DNA from: Kordiimonas sp.
GTDB taxonomy: Bacteria; Pseudomonadota; Alphaproteobacteria; Sphingomonadales; Emcibacteraceae
Direction: 5' to 3'
NCBI GenBank assembly: GCA_002700365.1
Contig: PADB01000010.1
Coordinates: forward strand, 544,504-608,503
DNA length: 64,000 nucleotides
The position numbers were made by a program, and so were the translations under genes. Of the stretch, positions 6,523 through 27,748 are shown one piece after another. Position 1 is the stretch's first letter. The number at the start of each line of letters is the position of its first letter. Under the pieces are notes generated by a model, which was given only the letters and a program-made list of their open reading frames with translations, had not been told where the DNA came from and ran no database searches.

Positions 6523-6539
6523 TGTCGGTTTTTTTTACA
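6523..6539 (+). promoter_or_regulatory. Putative activator site TGTCGGTTTTTTTTACA
   Basis: A 17-bp element identical to 27634-27650. Both copies lie upstream of a sigma-54-type promoter and a PEP-CTERM gene. The start of this copy is 79 bp before the promoter -24 element. It is a natural candidate for the binding site of a sigma-54 enhancer-binding protein, PrsR being the known one for PEP-CTERM systems; the assignment is inferred. Confidence 0.65.
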
Positions 6540-6601
6540 GAATCTAAATCCACTTTATAACAAAATAATATAAGCCATTGTTTTTAATGAATTTATAAAA
6601 C

Positions 6602-6617
6602 TGGCCCCTTACTTGCA
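6602..6617 (+). promoter_or_regulatory. Sigma-54 (-24/-12) promoter
   Basis: TGGCCCCTTACTTGCA fits the RpoN consensus TGGCAC-N5-TTGCA with one mismatch; the invariant GG (6603-6604) and GC (6615-6616) are 12 bp apart. It lies about 50 bp before the start of the first PEP-CTERM gene. Confidence 0.75.
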
Positions 6618-6667
6618 TGTATGCTGGTGTATTGCATCTTGGATCGTTCAATTTCTGGAGGGGAATA

Positions 6668-7429
6668 ATGACCTTATCAATTACTAAAACGCTTGCGACG
6701 GCCGCTGTTGCCGTTATTGCCAGCACAACTATCACTTATGCTGCCGCTATTGATCTGCGGACATGGACCAAAGAAGACTATTCTGGTGGTGCAGGAAGCT
6801 GGGTACCGGAAGCATCAGCCGGTGCCTATGTAGACCAAAACATCAATGGTAACCCTACTGTTTATTACAGTGACTTCGATGCCACGAATAAGCGCGTAGA
6901 AGGTAAAATTCAGGTCCGTACAACAGGCGATGATGATTTTATCGGTTTTGTATTAGGTTGGGATGCGGGTGACTTTACATCTGCAACGGCTGATTACCTG
7001 TTGCTGGATTGGAAACAGGGCAATCAGGGTGCGGCCTCTCGCGGTCTGGCTCTGAACCGCATTTCCGGTCGTCCTGGATCAGCGAACGACTACTGGGCGC
7101 ATATTGGTGGTGTTACAGAACTGGCACGTGCTGCCACATTGGGTGACACAGGTTGGGCTGACAACACTGAATATGAATTCACCATTGATTTCTTTACCAC
7201 AAACGTAAAAGTTTGGGTTGATGGCGTTCTGCAATTTAATATTGCGGGCTCATTCGACGGTGGCGCGGTTGGTTTCTACAACTATTCACAGGGCACCGTC
7301 CGCTACAGCGCATTTGAAGAAACGCAGGCTCCACCGCCTGTGCCCAGCGTTGTTGAGCCTGGTACAGCCGGCCTGATCGGCCTGTCTTTGATGGGTCTAG
7401 CTGCTGCAGGGCGTCGCCGTAAGGCTTAA
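6668..7429 (+). CDS. PEP-CTERM protein with thrombospondin C-terminal (L-type lectin)-like domain
   Basis: 253 residues from the ATG at 6668, which has a strong GGAGGGGAA site. Signal peptide about 1-26. Residues about 65-225 follow the thrombospondin C-terminal domain: acidic 'DDDF-x-GFVLGW' (88-98), 'DWKQG' (114-118), a 'GW' in the middle, and the closing 'GGAVGFYNYSQGTVRYSAFE'. In animals this is a calcium-binding jelly roll. The C-terminus is an exosortase sorting tail: 'VEPG', a hydrophobic span and 'GRRRKA'; the usual first proline of PEP is replaced. Expected fate is export, cleavage by exosortase and attachment at the surface or in a matrix. It is monocistronic with its own terminator. 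Confidence 0.85.
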   Translation: MTLSITKTLATAAVAVIASTTITYAAAIDLRTWTKEDYSGGAGSWVPEASAGAYVDQNINGNPTVYYSDFDATNKRVEGKIQVRTTGDDDFIGFVLGWDAGDFTSATADYLLLDWKQGNQGAASRGLALNRISGRPGSANDYWAHIGGVTELARAATLGDTGWADNTEYEFTIDFFTTNVKVWVDGVLQFNIAGSFDGGAVGFYNYSQGTVRYSAFEETQAPPPVPSVVEPGTAGLIGLSLMGLAAAGRRRKA

Positions 7430-7529: not shown

Positions 7530-8198
7530 ATGCGCACAGTTTATCACCATTGGTTTTCCCCCTTCTCCCGCAAAGTCCGCATCGCCCTTTCTGAAAAGGC
7601 GATAGATGCTGACCTTGTCGTGGAAAAGACATGGAACCGCCGCACAGACTTTCTCCGGCTGAACCCGGCGGGGACCGTCCCGGTTATGATCGAAGAAAAC
7701 GGACTTATCCTCGTTGATAGTTACGCCATTTGTGAATACCTGGAAGAGACCGCACCGGAAATCCCGTTATTAGGACAAACGCCAGAAGAACGTGCAGAGG
7801 TCAGACGGCTTGTCAGCTGGTTTGATGTAAAATGTTATGAAGAGGTCACCCGGCTGCTGATTAACGAAAAAGTCCTGAAACGTTTCCTGAAAATGGGCAC
7901 ACCTGATTCGGATGCCATACGCTGTGCCGCCCATAACATCCGTCATCATCTGGGCTATATTCAATATTTGACAGAACGCCGTAACTGGCTGGCCGGACAT
8001 AATTTTTCATACGCAGATATTGCCGCAGCATCTCATCTGTCCTGCATTGATTATTTAGGCGATGTTCCATGGCAGAATTTTGAAGGGGCCAAAGACTGGT
8101 ACATGCGGATCAAATCCCGCCCTAGTCTCCGCCCAATTCTCAAAGACAACATTGCTGGATTCCCACCCGCACCCCATTACAGCAATCTTGATTTCTAA
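7530..8198 (+). CDS. fzlA: FzlA-type glutathione S-transferase-like division protein
   Basis: 222 residues. It opens 'YHHWFSPFSRKVRIAL' (thioredoxin-fold GST start), then 'LNPAGTVPV' and 'SYAICEYLEE' of the GST N-domain; the rest, 'RRLVSWFDVKCYEEVTRLL...EKVLKR' and 'YADIAAASHLSCIDYLGDVPW', matches FzlA. In Caulobacter FzlA binds FtsZ filaments, bends them and is needed for constriction; it is not known to act as a glutathione transferase. The gene lies six bases before queG, a neighbourhood usual in alphaproteobacteria. The identification as FzlA rather than another GST rests on overall resemblance. Confidence 0.8.
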   Translation: MRTVYHHWFSPFSRKVRIALSEKAIDADLVVEKTWNRRTDFLRLNPAGTVPVMIEENGLILVDSYAICEYLEETAPEIPLLGQTPEERAEVRRLVSWFDVKCYEEVTRLLINEKVLKRFLKMGTPDSDAIRCAAHNIRHHLGYIQYLTERRNWLAGHNFSYADIAAASHLSCIDYLGDVPWQNFEGAKDWYMRIKSRPSLRPILKDNIAGFPPAPHYSNLDF

Positions 8199-27633: not shown

Positions 27634-27650
27634 TGTCGGTTTTTTTTACA
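27634..27650 (+). promoter_or_regulatory. Putative activator site TGTCGGTTTTTTTTACA
   Basis: Identical over 17 bp to 6523-6539. Starts 69 bp before the -24 element of the next promoter, ten bp (about one DNA turn) less than in the first copy, so the site would face the same side of the helix. Confidence 0.65.
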
Positions 27651-27702
27651 ACTACGTTCTTCATATTAATGAATACTTAACCATATCAACACCTTACACC
27701 CA

Positions 27703-27718
27703 TGGCACTATTTTTGCA
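27703..27718 (+). promoter_or_regulatory. Sigma-54 (-24/-12) promoter
   Basis: TGGCACTATTTTTGCA matches the RpoN consensus TGGCAC-N5-TTGCA exactly, 30 bp before the second PEP-CTERM gene. Confidence 0.85.
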
Positions 27719-27748
27719 TTATGCCCATATGGATAATGGAGACACCAT

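Follow-up and report, generated by a model that had tools for sequence, protein, structure and literature searches.

The PEP-CTERM-like genes of the window (the whole stretch of 64,000 nucleotides that was analysed) are very probably driven by a phase-locked PrsR/sigma-54 enhancer switch, in which the DNA between activator box and promoter would be bent, most likely by IHF. The arrangement consists of a 17-bp box, a -24/-12 promoter and, in part of the spacers, an IHF-like element between the two, and the distance from box to promoter follows a comb with teeth about one helical turn apart. As an element, this is not new: a PEP-CTERM cis-regulatory site composed of a motif 1 and a motif 2 and linked to PrsR, PrsK and PrsT was reported by Haft et al. 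(2006; PMC1569441), so the window element is a further case of it, and the comb and the third element are the new part. No report of helical phasing at PEP-CTERM sigma-54 sites was found in open-licence PMC papers; the comb and the IHF-like element at these promoters are likely, although not certainly, unreported so far.

In the window, the 17-mer TGTCGGTTTTTTTTACA occurs twice without a mismatch, each time upstream of a -24/-12 promoter and a PEP-CTERM-like gene (Table 1), just as the first-pass annotation had noticed, and there is no third copy in the window within three mismatches. In 100 shuffled windows, the mean number of matches to the 17-mer was 0.28, with at least two in a single shuffle, while the gapped pattern of box, spacer and promoter was found twice against 0.01 expected from shuffles. 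The promoter called after the box is indeed there at both sites, with the spacing as the one point to be corrected: both promoters read TGGC-N7-TTGC instead of TGGC-N8-TTGC. Both sites also agree with the description by Haft et al., having a motif 1 that ends in TTTACA, a motif 2 (GG/GC), a spacer between 32 and 92 nt and a distance from promoter end (TTGC) to start codon (51 nt for gene 1 and 31 nt for gene 2) inside the reported range of 23 to 221 nt.

Table 1. Predicted regulatory elements and genes at the two window sites (positions are those of the window).
Feature	Position	Strand	Remarks
PrsR box (Haft motif 1), predicted, TGTCGGTTTTTTTTACA	6523..6539	+	Centre at about -97 from predicted transcript start
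IHF-like element TAAGCCATTG (YAAN4TTG)	6571..6580	+	Starts 31 bp 5' of TGGC; read by eye; putative IHF binding
Sigma-54 -24/-12 promoter TGGCCCCTTACTTGC	6602..6616	+	Predicted transcript start near 6628; spacer of 62 from box
Gene 1, exosortase-substrate-like, 253 aa	6668..7429	+	Signal-peptide-like N-terminus; C-terminus VVEPGTAGLIGLSLMGLAAAGRRRKA
PrsR box, predicted, identical 17-mer	27634..27650	+	Centre at about -87
IHF-like element TATCAACACCTTA, fits WATCARN4TTR	27684..27696	+	Starts 19 bp 5' of TGGC; read by eye; putative IHF binding
Sigma-54 -24/-12 promoter TGGCACTATTTTTGC	27703..27717	+	Predicted transcript start near 27729; spacer of 52 from box
Gene 2, exosortase-substrate-like, 214 aa	27749..28393	+	Signal-like N-terminus; C-terminus NEPAGLALIGLFALAGMAARRRR

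The open reading frame listed for gene 1 starts at 6617, adjoining the -12 element and lying 5' of the position where transcription is predicted to begin; translation probably starts at the ATG at 6668, 3' of GGAGGGG (6657 to 6663). Against a TIGR02595 cut-off of 16, gene 1 scored 14.4 to 14.5 bits as a protein and 16.8 bits in the genome search, and gene 2 scored 14.6 bits in the genome search; this is a short model, which also matched weakly in 12 of the 14 control genomes, in two of them above the cut-off. By score, the PEP-CTERM calls for both genes are borderline; the anatomy of the tails appears typical, with VEP or NEP (an acidic residue plus proline), a hydrophobic helix and RRRK or RRRR. 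The gene 1 product also matched the Pfam thrombospondin C-terminal region (TSP_C) at 24.8 bits, slightly below the cut-off of 25.6. Its neighbors are a BacA-family protein (Pfam PF02673; 5584 to 6387, minus strand) and a glutathione S-transferase (7530 to 8195, plus strand).

The 17-mer had been thought to be limited to these two genes, a view that the source genome (2.40 Mb) contradicts, with three exact copies and seven matches within two mismatches (reversed-pattern control, one). The dedicated PrsR/RpoN regulon of exosortase substrates that had been proposed is supported: all seven matches precede what look like exosortase-substrate genes, as do all 11 matches to the gapped box-and-promoter pattern (reversed control, none); at a 12th gene the box is weaker. 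The spacers of these 12 genes measure 52, 53, 62 (four times), 63, 63, 65, 72, 84 and 86, one of the values of 62 (that of the weaker box) having been obtained by subtracting printed positions. TIGR02595 gave 13 matches in this genome, 11 of them above the cut-off; 11 of the 13 have a box and promoter (spacers of 52, 53, 62, 62, 62, 63, 63, 65, 72, 84 and 86), and no box was found at the other two, C4:212823 and C5:109138. The latter PEP-CTERM-like gene follows a boxed gene of the same strand at a distance of about 220 bp, and the two may be cotranscribed. Conversely, the box copy at C5:129200 precedes a gene ending in VPVPVAAWFFGPALLGLAGLRKIKK that is absent from the TIGR02595 matches.

The regulators and the sorting machinery that the first-pass annotation suggested looking for (prsK, prsR, rpoN and an exosortase) were all found above cut-off. 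In NCBIfam, PrsR scored 708 bits (cut-off, 502.6), PrsK 713.9 (300) and PrsT 660.5 (312.2), and on contig C1 PrsT, PrsR, PrsK and an EpsB_2 transferase are adjacent in a row. RpoN is present (444 bits; cut-off, 277.35), as is exosortase A (TIGR03109, 306.7 bits; cut-off, 208), whose frame also encodes an EpsI domain. Eight neighboring proteins of the XrtA system are likewise above their cut-offs, namely, an export protein, a chain-length determinant, a tyrosine kinase, an outer-membrane protein, an ATPase, a deacetylase, a FemAB protein and an amidotransferase. Neither random scatter of the motif away from exosortase substrates nor lack of an RpoN or PrsR homologue, the two outcomes named beforehand as speaking against a regulon, was seen. 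Such a site had also been presented as something new in an alphaproteobacterium. Rhodospirillum rubrum belongs to this class. The set of Haft et al. (2006) already contains that species (PMC1569441), and the claim of novelty falls.

Spacing was compared across 40 relatives from the same order, 150 genomes from one order of a different class and a phylum-wide draw of 249 genomes, using a gapped pattern that accepted any spacer from 37 to 97 bp. The own-order set yielded 142 sites in 22 of the 40 genomes (reversed control, none) and the other-class order 89 sites in 38 of the 150 genomes (reversed control, four). There is next to no chance that the 17-mer is a fortuitous or low-complexity T-tract match, for all its eight consecutive thymines: the shuffles gave an expectation far below the observed count, and the 142 own-order sites stand against no reversed-control match, so that this candidate was rejected. 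Once identical sequences had been merged, the 254 sites listed became 253; the scan behind them covered loci L001 to L136 and L222 to L405 (320 loci, with L137 to L221 outside it), and three outer copies of doubled boxes entered the set by way of overlapping stretches.

The spacers of the 253 sites form teeth at 43, 50 to 55, 61 to 66, 72 to 76, 83 to 87 and 94 to 96 bp, and three sites fall between teeth, with spacers of 46, 68 and 92. In both large sets, the values cluster around 52, 63, 74, 85 and 95, and the intervals between are nearly empty. The resultant length R was 0.82 for the own order (142 sites) and 0.80 for the other order (89 sites), against maxima of 0.30 and 0.36, respectively, in 1,000 jittered controls each. 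Teeth set by the other-order sites captured 134 of the 142 own-order sites, the remaining eight having spacers of 72 (three sites), 76 (three sites), 92 and 94. A sorting-signal open reading frame, recognized by an ad hoc rule (proline, 15-residue hydrophobic stretch and basic tail) and not by a curated model, was present within about 500 nt of 177 of the 253 sites, and all 177 are on the comb, the teeth of which come from the same data. Among the on-comb sites, 70 of 247 have no recognized sorting-signal frame; some of these stretches end early and some hold other genes. Counts based on 247 sites omit six with spacers of 39, 41, 42, 46, 68 and 92, none of which has a sorting-signal frame and of which those of 41 and 42 adjoin the 43 tooth. 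In the phylum-wide draw, which added 23 sites with two reversed-control matches, the periodicity was not significant (R of 0.46; largest null value, 0.62). Counting three sites already included elsewhere, nine of the 26 sites from this draw have a sorting-signal frame, all nine on the comb; since the other 17 have none, part of the draw resembles chance matches.

A comb might also be inherited, a few ancestral promoters with a few spacer lengths having been copied many times so that the phase would carry no function. It is true that 85 of the 253 sites can be chained together as a single loose DNA cluster and that, of 81 homologous gene pairs, 57 show a spacer difference of at most 3 bp. However, the comb is retained when each DNA cluster is reduced to a single site (which leaves 99 sorting-signal sites, all outside the gaps), and its teeth are common to two orders of different classes. 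Moreover, homologues that change their spacer do so mainly by 10 to 13 bp (12 pairs) or 19 to 23 bp (11 pairs, five of which compare only the two copies of doubled boxes), with a single pair differing by 7 bp. Finally, the distance from box to start codon, which would be inherited equally well, showed no periodicity among 162 genes, and neither did that from the -12 element to the start codon, so the phase is a property of box and promoter. Mere inheritance is therefore very improbable, and we retain functional phasing as the preferred reading. For the 99 sites kept as one per cluster, the fitted slope was 10.82 +/- 0.11 bp per turn (residual SD, 1.2 bp), an error that ignores relatedness; plain period scans of the two large sets peaked at 10.78 to 11.02 bp.

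The presence of the box follows that of PrsR. Sites were found in 21 of the 28 relatives with PrsR above cut-off and in one of the 12 without, as a single site with a spacer of 92, in a gap; each of these 12 genomes does keep a PrsR-related match at an E value of at most 1e-100, possibly a PrsR fragment in two of them (G019 and G025). There is little chance that another NtrC-type activator of the genome binds the box in place of PrsR: seven further proteins match TIGR02915 below the cut-off, but the sites track PrsR above cut-off, and Haft et al. had arrived at PrsR by phylogenetic profile (PMC1569441). PrsR is kept as the probable activator. Against it, seven PrsR-containing genomes lack a box of the standard form, six of them belonging to one genus. 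In five of these six genomes, a variant box, GTAA-N7-TTACA, gave eight matches with spacers of 62 to 75, all on the comb, which precede three sorting-signal genes, four members of a short secreted-protein family and one other open reading frame (which may be chance). Across the 40 genomes the variant pattern matched 16 times against 12 in the reversed control, little above it, so that the variant box rests on spacing and gene context. At four loci (L228, L229, L231 and L237), the variant box precedes genes for secreted-looking proteins of 125 to 137 aa that end in NGREDAARALSEFGMD or similar.

Boxes are sometimes doubled. An inverted second box lies 19 to 20 bp (about two turns, center to center) 5' of the main box at 13 of the 247 sites, and a direct second copy at 20 bp was seen at three of the 247. 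The reversed box was also considered as an alternative orientation and rejected: it gave 25 matches (reversed control, none), of which 17 adjoin a forward box. As judged by eye from the printed sequences, 13 of these forward boxes have TGTC and four are one letter off, and the other eight of the 25 have no forward box beside them. A separate observation concerns on-comb boxes before short proteins that lack a sorting tail and have twin-arginine-like N-termini (RRR, followed by a KxGAxxAP-type stretch), found both in the own order (L263:2191-2574, L302, L070, L071 and L257) and in the other order (L111, L350, L123, L376 and L392). None of the five scanned with NCBIfam scored above cut-off, and neither of the two scanned with Pfam gave a match at an E value of 0.01. 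These proteins likely form a second branch of the PrsR regulon.

Within the spacers, the string YAAN4TTG stands out: it occurs in 95 of 247, being absent from the other 152, against a mean of 16.8 and a maximum of 28 in dinucleotide shuffles. Both large sets contribute (60 of 139 own-order sites and 32 of 88 other-order sites). The string starts 30 to 33 bp before TGGC in 73 of its 99 occurrences and at 41 to 43 bp, one turn further, in nine, and it is phased relative to both box and promoter. Reversed, YAAN4TTG corresponds to the beginning of WATCARN4TTR, the IHF consensus quoted in the accessible part of PMC7962754; the forward form, CAAN4TTR, is less enriched (46 of 247; shuffle mean, 17.0), and the strict reverse and forward forms occur in 28 and 7 of the 247 (shuffle means, 1.4 and 1.1). 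Read by eye, window site 1 is a relaxed match to the IHF consensus and site 2 a match to WATCARN4TTR; among nine other spacers of the source genome, four have the reverse form, one the forward form and four neither.

The placement of IHF between activator site and sigma-54 promoter is described as a common design in the same text (PMC7962754), which makes IHF the likely binder of the middle element, as far as can be judged from sequence. That the element is instead a generic AT-rich bend, or a site for HU or another nucleoid protein, is unlikely, although it deserves attention; it would leave the PrsR/sigma-54 part standing. The spacers are AT-rich and the strict forms are few, as such a bend would have it, but the string is specific in its N4 gap (7 occurrences with an N3 gap, 14 with an N5 gap and 18 for the reversed string, compared with 99), and both the phasing and the sigma-54 precedent argue for IHF.

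With IHF as the probable bending protein, the switch could work as follows. PrsK presumably phosphorylates the response regulator PrsR, which would bind the 17-bp box about 80 to 130 bp 5' of the transcript start. The intervening 43 to 96 bp would be bent, most likely by IHF, allowing the AAA+ domains of PrsR to contact sigma-54 RNA polymerase at -24/-12 and open the promoter; the PEP-CTERM product would then be handled by the exosortase XrtA. At separations that work, the faces of the helix occupied by box, bend and promoter would stay the same. The persistence length of DNA is about 150 bp. A loop of 43 to 96 bp is shorter than this and therefore stiff in twist, so that only fixed-face separations should work; selection may purge the other spacings, with whole-turn insertions and deletions remaining. 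We thus infer from the DNA that PrsR and IHF bind, that the region loops and that the phase is a selected property. The fitted step falls between the repeat of free DNA (about 10.5 bp) and the 11.08 to 11.60 bp fitted to lac loops in vivo, as given in the part of PMC1762422 available, and an intermediate step of 10.8 bp is what is expected for supercoiled DNA.

On the scale of genomes, the comb strongly indicates that a sigma-54 activator has to bind on a particular DNA face with respect to its promoter, and spacer length becomes a test of a candidate PrsR site. It predicts that 5-bp insertions abolish PEP-CTERM expression and that insertions of 10 to 11 bp do not. IHF is added as a likely partner, and other secreted proteins appear to be indicated in the PrsR regulon. 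We lean, with some reservation, towards a wider view in which PEP-CTERM promoters of the Proteobacteria form a rigid, three-part, phase-locked complex of PrsR, IHF and sigma-54 polymerase, with spacings as a whole-turn comb; the comb would then be a natural ruler of the helical repeat in the cell and a sharp filter for the regulon, including its secreted proteins other than PEP-CTERM. The result of worth is the phase rule together with the third element, both inferred from sequence.

Aquincola tertiaricarbonis is a betaproteobacterium. Its pepA is a PEP-CTERM gene with a mapped -24/-12 start, RpoN1 dependence and a predicted upstream enhancer (PMC9850573); what is available of that report concerns another organism and a single gene, without an analysis of spacing. 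IHF-assisted sigma-54 promoters (nif and others) share the order of activator site, IHF bend and -24/-12 promoter (PMC7962754, in part), and differ in that, at PEP-CTERM promoters, the IHF component is a prediction. The phase principle has a precedent in the Vibrio qrr enhancers (LuxO/sigma-54), 61 natural sigma-54 enhancers with comb-like loop lengths of about 80 to 120 bp that cluster about 11 bp apart (PMC4740811, Nat Commun 2016, in the accessible text). Those enhancers belong to a single genus and to a different activator and regulon, whereas the present comb comprises 253 sites in two classes, with three in gaps and a phased middle element. The closest relative is the site of Haft et al. 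(2006), likewise a 17-nt motif ending in TTTACA and sometimes repeated, with a sigma-54 motif 3' of it, before PEP-CTERM genes; PrsR, PrsK and PrsT are also encoded by adjacent genes in the source genome. The available text of that paper gives the spacer as a mean of 62.8 nt with an SD of 10.6 and a range of 32 to 92, and in that text there is neither a third element nor any wording on helix, period, face or phase (PMC1569441). Beyond that description, the sites reported here have a quantized spacer, a phased IHF-like element, box pairs 19 to 20 bp apart that are mostly inverted and, in one genus, a variant box.
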